From positions 1 through 64,000 of the forward strand of contig CAKVEW010000007.1 in NCBI GenBank assembly GCA_934746015.1: 64,000 nt of DNA. The letters are read 5' to 3'. Numbering within the stretch: position 1 is the first letter of the stretch; each line of letters opens with the position of its first letter. Under the pieces are notes generated by a model that saw nothing but the letters and a program-made list of their open reading frames with translations, was not told where the DNA came from and ran no database searches. Shown one piece after another: positions 9,600 through 17,201 of this stretch. The position numbers were made by a program, and so were the translations under genes. This DNA is from an uncultured Clostridium sp. (GTDB taxonomy: Bacteria > Bacillota > Clostridia > Clostridiales > Clostridiaceae).

Positions 9600-10442
9600 A
9601 TGAATGAAGTTAAAAAAGTAGCAACAATAAACGATTTATCTGGAATAGGAAGGTGCTCTCTAACAGCAGCAATACCGGTTTTATCTGCCTTGGGAGTTCA
9701 ATGTTGCCCCTTTCCAACAGCGGTATTATCTTCTCAAACAGAGTTTGAGAAATTTACTTTTCTAGATATTACTGATGAAATGATTAAATATAAAGAAACT
9801 TGGGATGAATTAGGAATTAGATTTGATTGTATTTATAGTGGATTTTTAGGATCAGAAAAACAAATAGATATAGTATTAGATTTTGTAAAAGAAAAGAAAA
9901 AAGCTTTAATAGTAGTAGATCCTGTTATGGGGGATAATGGAACTCTTTACGATACATTTACAAATAGTATGTGTAAAAAGATGAAAGAACTAGTATCTGT
10001 AGCGGATATAGTTACTCCTAATTTAACTGAGGCTTGCATTTTAACTGGCGAAATATATAAAAAATATGAAACTAGTGATGAGAAAGTAATGAAAATAGCA
10101 AAAGAAATATCTAAAATGGGGCCTGAAAAAGTAATAATAACTGGCGTTATAAGAGATAATAAAATTTATAATTTCGCTTATGACAAAATAGAAGATAAGT
10201 TTTCAAAGGTGGAATCATACTTTAATAATGAATCATACAGTGGGTCAGGAGATATATTTACATCTATAATTATAGGACTACTTTTAAATGGACATGATTT
10301 AAATTATGCTATAAAAAATGCAACAGAATTTATTTATAAATCAATTGAAGTTACATCTAAGTTTCATACTAATCCAAAAGAAGGAATTATGTTTGAGTTA
10401 TTTTTAAAGGAGTTGATTTTAATAAATGAACACAAGTATTAA
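9600..10442 (+). CDS. Pyridoxamine/pyridoxal kinase (PdxY/PdxK type)
   Basis: Ribokinase-fold kinase phosphorylating a B6 vitamer with ATP, 280 residues. An upstream TTG at 9555 would add 15 unconserved residues; the ATG here gives the usual start MNEVKKVATINDLSGIGRCS. VVDPVMGDNGTLYD and the anion-hole motif SYSGSGDIFTSIIIG (near residue 215) are visible. The gene overlaps the following ECF S component by 17 bases, which suggests translational coupling and a joint salvage pathway for vitamin B6. Kinases of this clade can also act on hydroxymethylpyrimidine, so the exact vitamer is inferred. Confidence 0.85.
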   Translation: MNEVKKVATINDLSGIGRCSLTAAIPVLSALGVQCCPFPTAVLSSQTEFEKFTFLDITDEMIKYKETWDELGIRFDCIYSGFLGSEKQIDIVLDFVKEKKKALIVVDPVMGDNGTLYDTFTNSMCKKMKELVSVADIVTPNLTEACILTGEIYKKYETSDEKVMKIAKEISKMGPEKVIITGVIRDNKIYNFAYDKIEDKFSKVESYFNNESYSGSGDIFTSIIIGLLLNGHDLNYAIKNATEFIYKSIEVTSKFHTNPKEGIMFELFLKELILINEHKY

Positions 10443-10950
10443 AACAAAAAATATAGTATTAACAGCACTTTTTGCAGCAATGATATGTATAACAATTGCA
10501 TTTTTATTTCATATCCCAACAGGATTTAATGGTGGATACATTCATTTAGGAGATACCCTTATATATTTAGCAGCCGTACTTTTACCTACACCATATGCAA
10601 TGGCTGCTGCAGCTATTGGTGGAGGTCTTGCAGATACTTTAACAGGGGGTATGCTTTGGGTTATACCAACAATAATAATTAAGCCTATAATGGTGTTGTT
10701 TTTTACATCTAAAGAAGATAATATAATTTGCAGACGAAATATTATAGCAGTATTTGTTGCAGGATTTGTTGGATGCTTTGGATATTATTTAGCAGGAGCT
10801 ATTATTTCAGGTAACTTTATTGCTCCACTTGCAACTTTATATTTAGAATTTATACAACCATTAGCAAGTGGTATAATATTCTTAGTAGCTGGATATTCTT
10901 TAGATAAGATAAAAATTAGAGAAAAAATTTCACATGCTTCTGTAAAATAG
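10426..10950 (+). CDS. ECF transporter S component, probably for a B6 vitamer
   Basis: Small membrane protein of 174 residues with about six hydrophobic segments and the motif GFNGGYIHLGDTLIYLAA typical of the DUF1393/ECF-S group. It binds a vitamin precursor and works with an ATPase/EcfT module. No such module adjoins it, so it probably uses shared (group II) energising subunits or the one encoded at 12714-15244. Overlap with the pyridoxal-type kinase gene suggests pyridoxine or pyridoxal as substrate; this rests on context alone. The ribosome site AAAGGAGT lies within the kinase gene. Confidence 0.82.
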   Translation: MNTSIKTKNIVLTALFAAMICITIAFLFHIPTGFNGGYIHLGDTLIYLAAVLLPTPYAMAAAAIGGGLADTLTGGMLWVIPTIIIKPIMVLFFTSKEDNIICRRNIIAVFVAGFVGCFGYYLAGAIISGNFIAPLATLYLEFIQPLASGIIFLVAGYSLDKIKIREKISHASVK

Positions 10951-10974
10951 TTATAAATAACAAGAGGTAATCTT

Positions 10975-11754
10975 ATGAAGGTAATGACATTTAATTTAAG
11001 GACAGATTTTCCTTTAGACATTAATAATAGGTGGAATAAAAGAAAAGAAATAGTCTATGAAATTATAAAAAATAATGATTTTGATATAATTGGAGTACAA
11101 GAGCTAAATAATAAAATGTTTAAAGATTTAACTTCTGAAATATCTAATTATAATTTTGTAGGGGATCCAAGAAGTAAAAAGTATTTTGTTGAAAGAAATG
11201 ATATTTTAGTTTCTACAAGGCATAGAATTTTAGATTATAATACTTTTTGGCTATCAGAAAAGCCTGATAAAATAGGAAGTGCTATTTGGTATTCAGTATT
11301 TCCAAGAATTTGTACTACAGCTTTAATAGAGCTAGAGGATGGGAATATTATTAGAGTGTATAATACTCATTTAGATTTTTTATTTTCTAAAGCAAGAGAA
11401 TATGGATTAAGAAAAATATGTGAGTATATGGAAAGTAAGCATGAAAAAGATGACTATCCAGCGATATTAATGGGAGATTTTAATGCTAGTCCAAATAGTA
11501 AGGCAATTAAAGAGTTTTCAGAAGGAAAATATGGTGCAAAGAAATTTATAACAGTTCAAGAAAATAAAAAGGAATTTTATTCTATGTCTACATTAAGTAA
11601 GTTTAAAGGAAAGAAAAAAGGACTTCATATTGATTATATTTTTGTTACAGAAGAATTTAATGTTAGAAATAGTGAAATAATATATTATAATAAAATGGGA
11701 AAATATCCATCTGATCATTATCCCATAAGTGCTGAATTAGAAATTATAGATTGA
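10975..11754 (+). CDS. Endonuclease/exonuclease/phosphatase (EEP) family protein
   Basis: Metal-dependent phosphodiesterase or phosphatase of the DNase I/exonuclease III fold, 259 residues, no signal peptide. Metal and catalytic motifs are in order: MTFNLR, IIGVQELNN, NTHLDFL, MGDFNASPNS, HIDYIFV and SDHYPISAE. It starts 24 bases after the S component gene with a GAGGT ribosome site and is probably in the same operon. The substrate is unknown: members act on DNA, inositol phosphates, sphingomyelin or nucleotides. A role in releasing vitamin from a phosphorylated form is a guess. Confidence 0.85.
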   Translation: MKVMTFNLRTDFPLDINNRWNKRKEIVYEIIKNNDFDIIGVQELNNKMFKDLTSEISNYNFVGDPRSKKYFVERNDILVSTRHRILDYNTFWLSEKPDKIGSAIWYSVFPRICTTALIELEDGNIIRVYNTHLDFLFSKAREYGLRKICEYMESKHEKDDYPAILMGDFNASPNSKAIKEFSEGKYGAKKFITVQENKKEFYSMSTLSKFKGKKKGLHIDYIFVTEEFNVRNSEIIYYNKMGKYPSDHYPISAELEIID

Positions 11755-11757
11755 TAA

Positions 11758-11813
11758 GGATAGTAAATTAAGCTAATTTTTATTAGAATAATTTACTATC
11801 CTTTAATTATTTT
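11758..11813 (+). terminator. Terminator after the EEP gene
   Basis: A 13-bp perfect stem, GGATAGTAAATTA with TAATTTACTATCC (11758-11770 / 11789-11801), starts just after the stop codon and is followed by a T-rich run. Confidence 0.7.
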
Positions 11814-11872
11814 TGGTCAAATTTACTAATGAAAATGAATAAAAATGGTTATAATTACGAATGAGTAATGTG

Positions 11873-11902
11873 TTGACTTTATCAATATTCGCATTATATA
11901 CT
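11873..11902 (+). promoter_or_regulatory. Promoter of the dedicated ECF transporter operon
   Basis: TTGACT (11873-11878) and TATACT (11897-11902) with an 18-base spacer match a sigma-A promoter. The leader to the first gene is about 60 bases and shows no riboswitch I recognise. Confidence 0.6.
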
Positions 11903-11969
11903 TTTATGTAGTTAAACATATGAATAAAATTTCAATATACTAACATTTTACTTTTACGGAGGAATTACA

Positions 11970-12521
11970 ATGGAAAAAAAATTATCTATTAAAACTATAG
12001 TTGCAATAGGAATAGGAGCAGCAGTATTTATGATTTTAGGACGTTTTGGTTCTATTCCATCAGGAATACCAAATACTAATATTGAGACTAGTTATGCATT
12101 TTTAGCTTTAATGGCAGTATTATATGGGCCAATAGCAGGAGTAGCAATAGGTTTTATAGGACATTTATTAAAAGATTTAGTCTTTTATGGTTCTCCTTGG
12201 TTTAGTTGGGTTATTGCCTCAGCAGTAGTAGGTTTTATATTAGGATTAGCATGGAAGAGACTAAAGGTTAATGATGGAGAATTTGAGAAAAAAGAAATTA
12301 TTGTATTTAATATTTATCAAGTAATTGCAAATGCTATATCATGGATTTTAATTGCTCCTACATTAGATATTGCTATTTATGCAGAACCAAGTAATAAAGT
12401 TTATTTGCAAGGTATAGTAGCTGCTATTTCTAATTCTATTACAGTTGGAGCATTAGGTACTTTTTTAATTTATACATACTCAAAAACTAGAGTTAAAAAA
12501 GGAAGTTTAGATAGGGAATAA
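11970..12521 (+). CDS. ECF transporter S component, UPF0397 family
   Basis: Integral membrane substrate-capture subunit, 183 residues with about five to six membrane segments, for example [19 protein letters not shown] and [20 protein letters not shown]. The sequence [25 protein letters not shown] is split here only by length limits: [15 protein letters not shown] is the recognisable UPF0397 signature. Homologues are often labelled riboflavin or HMP/thiamine transporters, but the substrate is not established. A strong GGAGG precedes the start. It is the first gene of a complete ECF module with the following ATPase and T genes (group I). Confidence 0.85.
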
Positions 12522-12534
12522 TAAATAACTAATT

Positions 12535-12571
12535 AAAATACTGGAGTCTTTAGATTTCTAGTATTTTTTAT
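12535..12571 (+). terminator. Hairpin between ECF S and ATPase genes
   Basis: AAAATACT pairs with AGTATTTT, extended inward by wobble pairs, followed by T-run TTTTTTA. It probably attenuates transcription from the S gene into the ATPase and T genes. Confidence 0.55.
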
Positions 12572-12713
12572 TTTAAATAATATAAATAAAAATATATTAA
12601 TAGATATTGAATTTAATGATTTTTTTATGTACATATTGAAAAAAATATAGTAATATTTAAAATCGGAGATGAAGTCTTCAATCTTATATTTTACGTGTAA
12701 AGGGAGATTTGCT

Positions 12714-14420
12714 ATGAAAAAACCTGTTATTGAGTTCAAAAATTTTACTTTCCAATACAGAGCTCAAGCAAAGCCAACATTGAATAATATAAACCTTACT
12801 ATATATGAAGGTGAAAAAGTTTTTATTGTTGGGCCATCTGGATCAGGAAAAAGCACAATTTCAAATTGTATTAATGGATTGATTCCATTTTCTTATAAGG
12901 GAAATATTTCAGGAAGTTTAAAAATAAATGGTAAAGAAACAAAAGATATGAGTATCTTTGAATTATCAAATTCAGTTGGGACTGTTCTTCAAGATCCCGA
13001 TAGTCAATTTATTGGATTAACTGTAGCTGAAGATATTGCTTTTAAGTTAGAAAATGATTGTGTAGACCAAGATGAAATGAAAGAAAAAGTAAAAATAACT
13101 TCTAAAATTGTTGATATAGATAGTCATTTGAATTTAGCACCCTATAGTTTATCTGGTGGGCAAAAACAACGTGTAACATTAGCAGGTGTTATGGTTGGTG
13201 ATGTAGATATATTATTATTTGATGAACCATTAGCAAGTTTAGATCCAGCTACTGGTAAAAGTGCTATTGAATTAATTGATGAAATAAAAAGTAAAACAAA
13301 TAAAACAATAGTTATTATAGAACATAGATTAGAAGATGTATTGCATTGTGATGTAGATAGAATAATTGTTGTAAATAATGGTGAGATTATGGCAGATATG
13401 ACACCAAAGGAGCTTTTATGCTCTAATATATTATCAGAAGCTGGAATACGTGAACCTCTTTATATTACAGCTTTAAAATATGCAGGGTGTGTAGTTAATT
13501 CAGATATTAATCCACAACATATAAATACATTAAATTTAGATGAATGTAAAGATAAATTAAAGTTCTGGTATGATAAAACTATAGAGGAAAGTAAAGAAAT
13601 AGATAGTAAGGTTATATTAGAATTAAAAAACATTAAGTTTGGGTATGAAAATGATAGAGAAATATTAAAAGGTATTTCTTTTAAGGTTAGAAAAGGCGAA
13701 ATGCTTAGTATAGTAGGGAAAAATGGCGCTGGGAAATCTACAATTTCAAAGCTTATTTGTGGTTTTTATAAGCCAACTAGTGGTGAAATATTATTTAATG
13801 GAGAAAATCTCATTAATGAAACCATCAAAGAGCGTGCTGAAAAAATTGGTATTGTAATGCAAAATCCAAATCAAATGATATCTAAAACTATGATATTTGA
13901 TGAAGTTGCATTAGGGCTTAGAGTAAGAGGAATAAGGGAAGAGGAAATTAAAGAAAGAGTATATAATACTTTGAAAATTTGTGGATTATATGAATTTCGT
14001 AATTGGCCAATTTCAGCCCTTAGCTTTGGACAAAAAAAGCGTGTAACAATTGCATCTATATTAGTATTAAATCCAGAAGTGATTATTTTAGATGAGCCAA
14101 CAGCAGGGCAAGATTTTAAACATTATACAGAAATTATGGAATTTTTAAAGGAATTAAATAAAAAGGGAGTTACAATTATAATGATAACTCATGATATGCA
14201 TTTAATGCTTGAATATACTAATAGAGCAATAGTATTTTCAAATGGTTTAAAATTAGCAGATGATATTGCTGCAAATGTTATAACAGATACAAATCTTATA
14301 CATGAAGCAAATTTAAAAGAAACTTCTTTATATGAATTAGCTATAAAATCTAATTTAGAAAATCCAAGAGATTTTGTTAAAAAATTTATTGACTATGATA
14401 GGAGGATTAGAGGCATATGA
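12714..14420 (+). CDS. ECF transporter double ATPase (fused EcfA domains, YkoD-like)
   Basis: Energising subunit with two fused ABC domains, 568 residues. Domain 1 has Walker A GPSGSGKST, signature LSGGQKQR and Walker B ILLFDEP; domain 2 (from about residue 300) has GKNGAGKST, the variant signature LSFGQKKR and IILDEPTAG. An ATG 45 bases upstream lacks a ribosome site, whereas AAAGGGAG precedes this start, which gives MKKPVIEFKNFTFQY, a normal ABC N-terminus. The gene overlaps ecfT by four bases. Fused ATPases are typical of dedicated ECF modules. Confidence 0.92.
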   Translation: MKKPVIEFKNFTFQYRAQAKPTLNNINLTIYEGEKVFIVGPSGSGKSTISNCINGLIPFSYKGNISGSLKINGKETKDMSIFELSNSVGTVLQDPDSQFIGLTVAEDIAFKLENDCVDQDEMKEKVKITSKIVDIDSHLNLAPYSLSGGQKQRVTLAGVMVGDVDILLFDEPLASLDPATGKSAIELIDEIKSKTNKTIVIIEHRLEDVLHCDVDRIIVVNNGEIMADMTPKELLCSNILSEAGIREPLYITALKYAGCVVNSDINPQHINTLNLDECKDKLKFWYDKTIEESKEIDSKVILELKNIKFGYENDREILKGISFKVRKGEMLSIVGKNGAGKSTISKLICGFYKPTSGEILFNGENLINETIKERAEKIGIVMQNPNQMISKTMIFDEVALGLRVRGIREEEIKERVYNTLKICGLYEFRNWPISALSFGQKKRVTIASILVLNPEVIILDEPTAGQDFKHYTEIMEFLKELNKKGVTIIMITHDMHLMLEYTNRAIVFSNGLKLADDIAANVITDTNLIHEANLKETSLYELAIKSNLENPRDFVKKFIDYDRRIRGI

Positions 14421-15244
14421 GTAAAATGTTAGAGTATTCAAATATAGATTCACCTATCCATAAGTTAACTGGTGCAGCAAAGTTAATATCATTTATAATA
14501 TGGGCAATAGCATCTATGGTTACTTATGATACAAGATTGCTTATTTTAATGTTTATTTTAAGTATAGTAGTATTTAAAATTTCAAAAGTAGAATTTAAAC
14601 AAATTTCATTTGTACTTTACTTTATATTAATATTTTTATTATTAAATAATTTAGCTATATTTATTTTTTCTCCATATGAAGGAGTTCAAATATATGGAAG
14701 CAGAACTGATTTATTTAAAATTGCTGGACCATATACATTAACATTAGAACAATTATTTTATCAATTTAATATAACAATAAAATATTTTTCTATAATACCA
14801 ATGGCTTTATTATTTATGGTGGCAACTAATCCTAGTGAATTTGCAGCATCATTAAATAGAATTGGTGTTAATTATAAAATAGCATATTCTGTTTCTATTG
14901 CTTTAAGATATATTCCAGATGTTCAACGTGATTATCAAGATATATCCTTTGCACAACAAGCAAGAGGAATAGATATGTCCAAAAAGGAAAAATTAACAAA
15001 AAGAATTAAAAATTCAGCTTCAATATTGATGCCTTTAATTTTTTCAAGCTTAGATAGAATAGAAAGTATAAGTTCAGCAATGGAACTTAGAGCTTTCGGG
15101 AAAAATAAAAAACGTACTTGGTATAACGGAAGAAAGTTTGAAAAGGGTGATTATATTACAATCACAATAGCAACAATATTGTTAGTAATGGCTATAGTAG
15201 CTATTAAAATTAATAATGGAAGGTTTTATAATCCTTTTATTTAA
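14417..15244 (+). CDS. ecfT: ECF transporter transmembrane subunit EcfT
   Basis: Membrane scaffold linking S component and ATPase, 275 residues with hydrophobic segments at both ends. The coupling helices carry the diagnostic motifs QQARGIDMS (near residue 185) and MELRAFGK (near residue 223). ATGA overlap with the ATPase gene implies coupled translation. It is the last gene of the operon and is followed by a terminator. It may also serve the lone S component at 10426; that is inference. Confidence 0.92.
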   Translation: MSKMLEYSNIDSPIHKLTGAAKLISFIIWAIASMVTYDTRLLILMFILSIVVFKISKVEFKQISFVLYFILIFLLLNNLAIFIFSPYEGVQIYGSRTDLFKIAGPYTLTLEQLFYQFNITIKYFSIIPMALLFMVATNPSEFAASLNRIGVNYKIAYSVSIALRYIPDVQRDYQDISFAQQARGIDMSKKEKLTKRIKNSASILMPLIFSSLDRIESISSAMELRAFGKNKKRTWYNGRKFEKGDYITITIATILLVMAIVAIKINNGRFYNPFI

Positions 15245-15393: not shown

Positions 15394-15422
15394 TTGACTT
15401 ATATTACTATAGAATATATTAT
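15394..15422 (+). promoter_or_regulatory. Promoter of the P-loop/LexA-fusion gene
   Basis: TTGACT (15394-15399), 17-base spacer, TATTAT (15417-15422). No GAAC-N4-GTTC-type SOS box is visible near it. Confidence 0.55.
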
Positions 15423-15465: not shown

Positions 15466-16890
15466 ATGGAATTAACAAAAGCTCAAGATAAGTTTATAAG
15501 ACATAAGACATCTGGCTATCAAGTTTTAAAAGGTAAAGAAGGAACAGGAAAAAGTACAGCTTCAATTTACAAAGCATTAAACTTGGAAAATAACTATTGT
15601 CTTTATGAAGATGATAAAATACTATTTGTTACATCTAATTATATTAAAAATACTGAAGCTAATAATCTTTATAATAAAGAAAATAATCAAGAATACTTTT
15701 ATTCATTATTTTCATTAGAAACAAATAGAGTAAATATAGTTACTTTTGAGGAATTAATTAATACATATTATAATGCTTATATTAGAGAAAAAGGACAAGT
15801 ATTTAAAATAATAGATAAAAAAGAAGCTTTAAAGGTATTAGAAACTTTAAAAAATGAAATAGTAACTTTTTATAAAAAGTCTAAGTTTATTGAAAAAGCT
15901 ACATTAGATTTTTTATTAGATGAGATATCATGGATTAAAGCAAGTAATTTAACATTAGAAGAATATTTAAATGTAGATAGAAAGGGCAGAAAGAATAGAA
16001 TTAAGAAAAATTCATATACTAGAGAATCTATTTATATTATTAAGGAAATGTATAATAATAAATTAAACAGTAATTTATTTATTGATGAATATGATCATGT
16101 ATTATTTGCCCTTGAATATATAAAAAGATATCAAGGAATCTATAGCCACATATTTTTAGATGATATTGAAAAAATGACTAAAGCTGAGATAGATTTTATA
16201 AAAGCTATCTATAAAGAAAAATCCTATTCATCTTTTATTTTTATATTAAATAGTGAATTGAATAATAAAGAAAATTCATGGATGATAAAGGGAAGAAAGT
16301 TTAATACATTAGGTGTGGATGTAAAGGGAAAAAGCTTTAGCTTTAAATTAAGATTTGAAAAGAAAAAGAAAGCAATCAATACAATAGAAAAATTCGAATA
16401 TATTAATCTGAAAAATAAAGATGTAGTAGAGTTTAATATAGATACTGCTTCTAATGTTAAAGAGATATTTGATAATGATAATACTATATATAATGAAGAT
16501 GATTTAATAGATTTACCTATGTATAATAACATAGCAGCAGGTAATCCTATTGAAATGAATGATAATATAGAAGGAACTTTTTATTTACCTAAGTATTGGC
16601 TTGAAAGAGGAAAAGATACTTTTATTTTAAGGGTAAAAGGTGATTCTATGGTTGATAAAAATATCTGTGATGGAGATTTAGTTGTTATTAAGAAACAAGC
16701 CAATGCAAATCATAATGATATAGTGGCAGCCAACTTAGATGGTGAAGCAACTTTAAAAACATTAAATTTAAATGCAGATACTCCTAAATTAATGCCAGCA
16801 AACTCATTATATTCACCAATAGAATTAGCTAATAAAGATGTAAGTATATTAGGTATAGCAATAGGTGTAATTAAGCAAGAGGTAAGCTAA
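15466..16890 (+). CDS. SF1-helicase-like P-loop domain fused to a LexA-type S24 autoprotease
   Basis: A 474-residue protein in two parts. Residues 1-300 resemble only the first half of a UvrD/Rep-type helicase: a Q-motif-like LTKAQDKFI, Walker A GKEGTGKST (K29), ILFVTSNY, VNIVTFEEL and an acidic IFLDDIEKM (D232-D233) where UvrD has DE. No later helicase motifs follow. Residues 350-474 are a LexA/UmuD-like protease: the presumed cleavage bond is A358-G359 in NIAAGNPIE, the nucleophile S394 is in RVKGDSMVD, and the general base is K431, 37 residues later as in LexA. There is no LexA-type winged HTH. Function unknown; a DNA-damage-triggered self-cleaving regulator or ATPase is a reasonable hypothesis. 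Confidence 0.85.
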   Translation: MELTKAQDKFIRHKTSGYQVLKGKEGTGKSTASIYKALNLENNYCLYEDDKILFVTSNYIKNTEANNLYNKENNQEYFYSLFSLETNRVNIVTFEELINTYYNAYIREKGQVFKIIDKKEALKVLETLKNEIVTFYKKSKFIEKATLDFLLDEISWIKASNLTLEEYLNVDRKGRKNRIKKNSYTRESIYIIKEMYNNKLNSNLFIDEYDHVLFALEYIKRYQGIYSHIFLDDIEKMTKAEIDFIKAIYKEKSYSSFIFILNSELNNKENSWMIKGRKFNTLGVDVKGKSFSFKLRFEKKKKAINTIEKFEYINLKNKDVVEFNIDTASNVKEIFDNDNTIYNEDDLIDLPMYNNIAAGNPIEMNDNIEGTFYLPKYWLERGKDTFILRVKGDSMVDKNICDGDLVVIKKQANANHNDIVAANLDGEATLKTLNLNADTPKLMPANSLYSPIELANKDVSILGIAIGVIKQEVS

Positions 16891-16908: not shown

Positions 16909-16994
16909 ATGATTATATGTAAATATTTCCCAGAAAATAATTAACATAATATTATTTGTATAAGAATAGGATAAAGTATAGAGGGGGAATATTT

Positions 16995-17201
16995 ATGTCT
17001 GATAATTTAATAGTAAATCAAAAAAGAAAAATTATGGATAATATTAACTATGCAAAGGAGTTAAATCTAAATAAGATTTCTGCACTTCTTCTTAGTGATG
17101 ATGAAGAACTACAAAAAGAACTTCTCACTTGGTTGATTTTTCATGGATATAAGGTATCTTTAACTAAGGATGAGGTTAATATACTAATAATAGAGTGGTA
17201 G
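16995..17201 (+). CDS. Small protein of unknown function
   Basis: 68 residues, unrecognised. An earlier in-frame ATG (16956) lacks a ribosome site, while AGAGGGGG precedes this one. The protein is acidic-to-neutral with predicted helices (NQKRKIMDNINYAKEL, DDEELQKELLTWLIF) and no membrane segment, signal peptide or cysteine. It stands alone between the LexA-fusion terminator and the next promoter. It could be a small regulator or adaptor, but nothing in the sequence decides this. Confidence 0.6.
   Translation: MSDNLIVNQKRKIMDNINYAKELNLNKISALLLSDDEELQKELLTWLIFHGYKVSLTKDEVNILIIEW

Follow-up and report, generated by a model that had tools for sequence, protein, structure and literature searches.

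A clostridial protein whose relatives are filed as repressor LexA joins half a DNA helicase to a predicted LexA-type self-cleaving domain and descends from a helicase-nuclease

The 64,000-nucleotide stretch analysed here (the window; positions 1 to 64,000 of contig CAKVEW010000007.1, uncultured Clostridium sp., GCA_934746015.1) encodes on its plus strand, at 15466..16890, a 474-amino acid (aa) protein composed of a pseudohelicase core, a linker and an S24 autoprotease domain. All features of this gene given below lie on the plus strand. The UvrD/PcrA-like 1A plus 1B core (about residues 1–300, 15466..16365) carries the Walker A motif GKEGTGKS (residues 23–30, 15532..15555), in which K29 is conserved in 102/102 aligned rows and in all 54 tallied proteins with this reduced layout (hereafter short forms). 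Motif II is degenerate (HIFLDDIE, residues 228–235, 16147..16170), with H228 invariant, D232 conserved at 90% or more and an Asp where the catalytic Glu is expected. A linker beta-hairpin (residues 305–336, 16378..16473), read from secondary structure and alignments, is common to longer relatives and precedes the LexA-type S24 domain (residues 347–471, 16504..16878). The predicted self-cleavage bond A358–G359 (16537..16542) aligns with that of LexA and is invariant in 102 rows, as are the catalytic residues Ser394 (16645..16647) and Lys431 (16756..16758), which stand at LexA spacing.

A Pfam search matched Peptidase_S24 over residues 351–466 (7.3e-32) and found no helix-turn-helix (HTH) family at E ≤ 1, residues 1–299 being helicase core. 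The first-pass annotation of this gene had proposed a superfamily 1 (SF1) 1A fold within residues 1–300, a Walker A motif at K29, a LexA-like module, no HTH and no helicase motifs beyond motif II. These proposals held up: the 1A fold was found, together with 1B, and neither motif III nor 2A remains. The protein thus has the LexA C-domain fold with Ser-Lys dyad and Ala-Gly bond expected of S24, and the 1A fold with Walker A expected of SF1A; the catalytic Glu of motif II (here Asp233) and the 2A domain with motifs IV–VI are not present, and ~67 residues separate core and S24. Against the NCBIfam model TIGR00498 (lexA) the protein scores 122.9 bits (cut-off 110.95), in a match whose first model position is 48 of 203. 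The S24 part by itself reaches 119.8 bits, enough to pass, and public records name relatives repressor LexA because this cut-off is passed. From its sequence, the window protein combines half a DNA helicase with a putative self-cutting sensor of DNA damage, which suggests a damage switch that acts by other means than gene repression. The linker hairpin was also considered as a remnant of the LexA wing, but hidden Markov model comparison and NCBIfam scores with versus without the linker (125.9 vs 119.8 bits) were too weak to claim this.

Relatives of ~815 aa (long forms), including P0126, P0160, L021 and ILYOP_RS14345 of Ilyobacter polytropus plasmid pILYOP01, comprise a complete UvrD-like helicase, a PD-(D/E)xK nuclease-like domain, the same linker and S24. 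The short form corresponds to this protein minus an internal block of ~320 residues. The span from position 300 to 691 of L021 has a median length of 67.5 residues (56–128) in short forms versus 388 in long forms, and the A4 profile matches 1–305 (200 bits) and 647–815 (171 bits), i.e. homologous 1A/1B, linker and S24 in the same order. The short form arose when a helicase-nuclease-S24 protein lost this internal block and was not stitched together from two halves; the earlier view that half a helicase had recently been joined to LexA finds no support. The nuclease assignment is based on kept residues, the signature in long forms being D568, E586-x-K588 and Q600-x3-Y604, and on the matches of four proteins to Pfam HSDR_N_2 (2.0e-26 to 6.5e-11); the hits of the long model in Foldseek and VIA were dominated by helicases and so provide no test of the nuclease part. 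Several long forms are broken, by a frame change in L031 (two frames, 493 + 263 aa) or by in-frame stops in L146 (genome G107; one TAA), the copy in G428 (two stops) and the fragment G088:C13 (one stop). A further set of helicase relatives (L099–L102, L167 and L169) has no S24; in 6/6 the nuclease residues have been lost or replaced along with S24, and 4/6 of their genomes also possess a short form.

Residue conservation was tallied in the numbering of L021 across 33 long forms, 54 short forms and 6 S24-less helicases, leaving out 12 partial sequences (both parts of L031 and of L146, L009, L022, L024, L027, L168, L170, L177 and L180) and the duplicate loci L103–L118 and L135. All tested motif I–VI helicase residues, from K29 to R473, occurred in 33/33 long forms. 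Their nuclease residues (D568, 33; E586, 32; K588, 33; Q600, 33; Y604, 32) and S24 residues (A700, 31; G701, 32; S736, 33; K773, 33) were similarly kept. Short forms have lost the nuclease and 2A, and in the remaining helicase core conservation was split: K29 (54/54), T/S30 (53), R174 (54), R195 (53), H238 (54), D242 (51) and W283 (44) were retained, and the motif II Glu E243 (10) and motif III Gln Q276 (2) were mostly lost. The S24 Ala, Gly, Ser and Lys were each present in 54/54. The S24-less helicases had mostly intact helicase residues (E430 in 4/6), nuclease residues replaced in three and absent in three, and no S24 in any of the six.

The short form has arisen more than once. In the 1A/1B tree (93 rows), short forms occupied three places, namely a group of 43 rows including the window, a group of 10 rows and L020 of Cellulosilyticum, requiring three changes to the short form that were forced by the starred branches; the S24-plus-linker tree gave the same three groups. 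A single clade of all short forms was rejected by approximately unbiased tests (p = 0.018 for 1A/1B, p = 0.0008 for S24 plus linker). Uniting only the two large short clades was rejected on the joined columns (p = 0.0036); neither single domain rejected it (p = 0.059 and 0.0735), which speaks against their separate origin. The groups tested had been named after a tree had been inspected, and all these p values are weakened by this choice and by long branches. The trees argue firmly for two independent origins, and a third is likely. K29 was present in all three groups and the S24 residues were retained in each, with the motif II Glu found in 9/43, 1/10 and 0/1 members, respectively.

To determine distribution, we used the family of the genome holding Clostridium sartagoforme L002 (206 genomes), in which 131 genomes had a match at E ≤ 1e-38. 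By hand classification of the printed rows, a short-type protein occurred in 122/206 genomes, 112 of them with both parts seen at E ≤ 1e-24 and ten by the S24 part alone (G019, G020, G048, G049, G057, G107, G108, G173, G174 and G181); the rows for G048, G058, G181 and G191 are cut or split. Long forms were found in 28 genomes, one of them (G107) with an in-frame stop, and 21 genomes carried both long and short forms. S24-less helicases occurred in 6 genomes, 4 alongside a short form and 2 without. Forty proteins were picked by hand from the listed rows, and not randomly. Across an even sample of the class, 14/391 genomes matched, 11 from the same family; the remaining three comprised the helicase part only (G319 and G575) and the long form with two stops (G428). 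None of the 55 matching records in the phage collection covered 80% of the window protein. The long form matched 868 records in the plasmid collection, one of which covered at least 80%, namely the megaplasmid pILYOP01 of Ilyobacter polytropus (L187, NC_014633.1), whose long form (41.4% identity over 99%) is annotated as an S24 family peptidase. Its presence on a fusobacterial plasmid is likely to reflect transfer outside Bacillota.

Upstream of the window gene lies a SigmaA-like promoter read from sequence (TTGACT - 17 bp - TATTAT, 15394..15422, plus strand), and an alignment of 9 upstream regions from the window clade shows the TTGAC and ATATAT blocks conserved. Within 300 bp of the gene, the sequence nearest to a LexA box carries 3 mismatches. 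Allowing at most one mismatch within 200 bp, LexA-box-like sites preceded 3/54 short forms (1.5 expected) and 1/33 long forms (1.0 expected), showing no excess for short forms, whereas the control search found such a site before 18/21 testable true lexA genes. Short forms thus share no common LexA box. A separate true LexA, with its HTH (PF01726) above cut-off, was present in 21/21 searched genomes carrying the family. At six true lexA loci (L063, L064, L066, L067, L069 and L075) a perfect GAACATATGTTC lies 638–668 bp upstream of the start, in addition to an imperfect box near −55.

Both domains are under purifying selection. The ratio of nonsynonymous to synonymous substitution rates (Ka/Ks) was 0.111 for 1A/1B and 0.062 for S24 between the window and L001, and 0.153 and 0.107 between L003 and L004; between the window and L003 it was 0.184 and 0.082, with Ks near saturation. 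Across the gene, values were 0.09–0.16. The loci fall in two syntenic chromosomal blocks. Just downstream of the window gene is an 81-aa open reading frame (ORF; 16956–17201) that matches nothing in Pfam or NCBIfam at E ≤ 1; at 6 more loci of the same clade a homologue likewise adjoins the gene. Upstream (10426–15244) is an energy-coupling factor (ECF)-like transporter cluster with a CbiQ-like protein (CbiQ, E 1e-28) and, by eye, two small membrane ORFs and a double ATP-binding cassette ATPase.

Compared with known systems, the window protein shares with LexA (TIGR00498) the S24 C-domain, the Ala-Gly bond and the Ser and Lys at LexA spacing, and the solved structure closest by sequence is LexA 3k2z. 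True clostridial LexA forms an outgroup clade in the S24 tree, and unlike LexA, the protein has a 300-residue helicase core in place of the winged HTH, and short-form promoters lack an excess of LexA boxes. LexA cleavage is triggered by RecA filaments, and repressors are known to be cut in this way, as is UmuD, in which a short arm precedes a self-cleaving S24 domain that serves a DNA-repair enzyme and not a promoter. Unlike UmuD, the window protein falls below the cut-off of the UmuD-type model NF007621 (83.1 vs 110 bits). With UvrD, PcrA and Rep of SF1A it shares the 1A and 1B folds, the Q motif residue, Walker A and the motif II Asp, but short forms lack 2A, the motif III Gln, motifs IV–VI and usually the catalytic Glu. 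The long helicase-nuclease-S24 relatives have 1A/1B, linker and S24 in identical order and differ in retaining 2A and the PD-(D/E)xK nuclease-like domain. HelD, the RNA polymerase-recycling ATPase with two core domains and RNA-polymerase arms, gave a weaker match than UvrD.

The pattern of retention and loss, with the Walker Lys and S24 residues kept and the hydrolysis, coupling and 2A elements lost more than once, is what one would expect if nucleotide gated a binding protein that also carries a self-destruct domain. Together with LexA as the best S24 match and a promoter that is not LexA-like, it favours a constitutively made, ATP-binding pseudohelicase switch whose S24 domain would cleave itself on RecA filaments, a reading to which we give about an even chance. 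The 1A/1B core would bind ATP, and probably also single-stranded DNA (ssDNA) or a repair partner; having lost 2A, motif III and usually the catalytic Glu, it would be unable to translocate. The LexA-type C-domain would pair two copies, and contact with RecA on ssDNA would induce self-cleavage at A358–G359, freeing the core from the C-domain, so that what the protein does at sites of damage would either stop or be unleashed. The pseudohelicase may thus retain DNA or a repair partner up to the point at which RecA filaments set it free. Since the promoter is not LexA-like, control would follow synthesis, making this a non-transcriptional arm of the SOS response; in the ancestral helicase-nuclease-S24 protein such a cut would govern an enzyme that is active. 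The earlier suggestion, a sensor that binds ATP or DNA and that RecA-stimulated cleavage would inactivate or release, rather than a classic repressor, is likewise plausible, fitting the sequences because the Walker Lys and S24 residues are strictly kept and the hydrolysis and coupling residues lost. The cut may either lift a brake or set an effector free.

Several observations count against this switch. The motif II Glu persists in 10/54 short forms, so some may hydrolyse ATP, and L024 and L027 (~351 aa, in and near Clostridium cadaveris) have lost Walker A and retained S24, which means that some lineages can do without ATP binding. The predicted structure does not fix the arrangement of the two domains (pTM 0.62). 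No neighbour is common to both syntenic blocks and none names a pathway. Finally, the three close relatives L148, L149 and L151 have a site one mismatch from the LexA box (GAATTTATGTTC or GAATTCATGTTC) at −54, and this subclade may be LexA-controlled.

Other explanations would use the same parts differently. The protein could buffer the SOS response, its S24 domain mainly occupying RecA filaments in competition with LexA for access to the co-protease site; this would set the threshold of SOS induction, and the 1A/1B core would do no more than bring the protein to ssDNA. We regard this as unlikely, though ahead of the other alternatives; it leaves unexplained both the K29 retained in 54/54 short forms despite vanished hydrolysis residues and the purifying selection on 1A/1B. 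A regulatory subunit comes next and is also improbable; it would use S24 to pair with the long form, or 1A/1B to pair with another helicase (PcrA, AddAB), and act as a dominant-negative brake that cleavage lifts. The joint occurrence of long and short forms in 21/131 positive genomes, and of short form and S24-less relative in 4, is in keeping with such pairing, but 97/122 short-type genomes showed neither, so a partner from the helicase-nuclease-S24 family is not required.

A role in antiphage defence, in which S24 would sense phage-induced RecA filaments or ssDNA and free or stop a helicase-nuclease or pseudohelicase effector, has a low probability. Long forms do score against PADLOC Gabija helicases (best GajB, 125.9 bits) and the NERD plus UvrD system (136 bits), but these scores reflect the common UvrD fold, and the window protein matched no PADLOC family at E ≤ 0.01, the GajB models included. 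Location in two ordinary syntenic blocks and the absence of 80% coverage in all 55 matching phage records also oppose a defence function. That the protein is a sequence-specific transcription repressor, the LexA paralogue of database records, is very unlikely; the TIGR00498 score on which this name depends is attained by the S24 part alone in a match starting at 48 of 203, no HTH was found at E ≤ 1, and the 21/21 searched genomes have their own true LexA. Least probable of all is a functionless relic of a decaying helicase gene. The progressive loss of motif III, the motif II Glu and 2A, and of Walker A in L024 and L027, resembles decay, yet Ka/Ks stays low over the whole gene, the active-site residues are invariant and the same reduced form was reached more than once.

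No description of a helicase–LexA fusion was found in the open papers searched, among them PMC3765255 (no mention of UvrD) and PMC12984324 (no passage with the terms sought), with subscription papers and preprints largely outside this coverage. The window protein is real, conserved and misnamed, and its new feature would be a LexA-type switch on a helicase-derived protein. The broader reading, tentative and somewhat short of an even chance, is of a clostridial non-transcriptional branch of the SOS response in which a LexA-type domain would directly switch a helicase-nuclease and also act in a derived ATP-binding pseudohelicase, the latter having arisen at least twice, and probably three times, by the same block loss, and having gone unnoticed because a match to the LexA profile earns it the name of repressor. 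Where work on SOS in Clostridium selects 'LexA' by annotation, the pseudohelicase-S24 protein may be mistaken for the repressor. If the reading is true, RecA filaments would directly control DNA-processing machines in many clostridia, and it becomes testable whether the fragment freed by cleavage is an activator, an inhibitor or waste.
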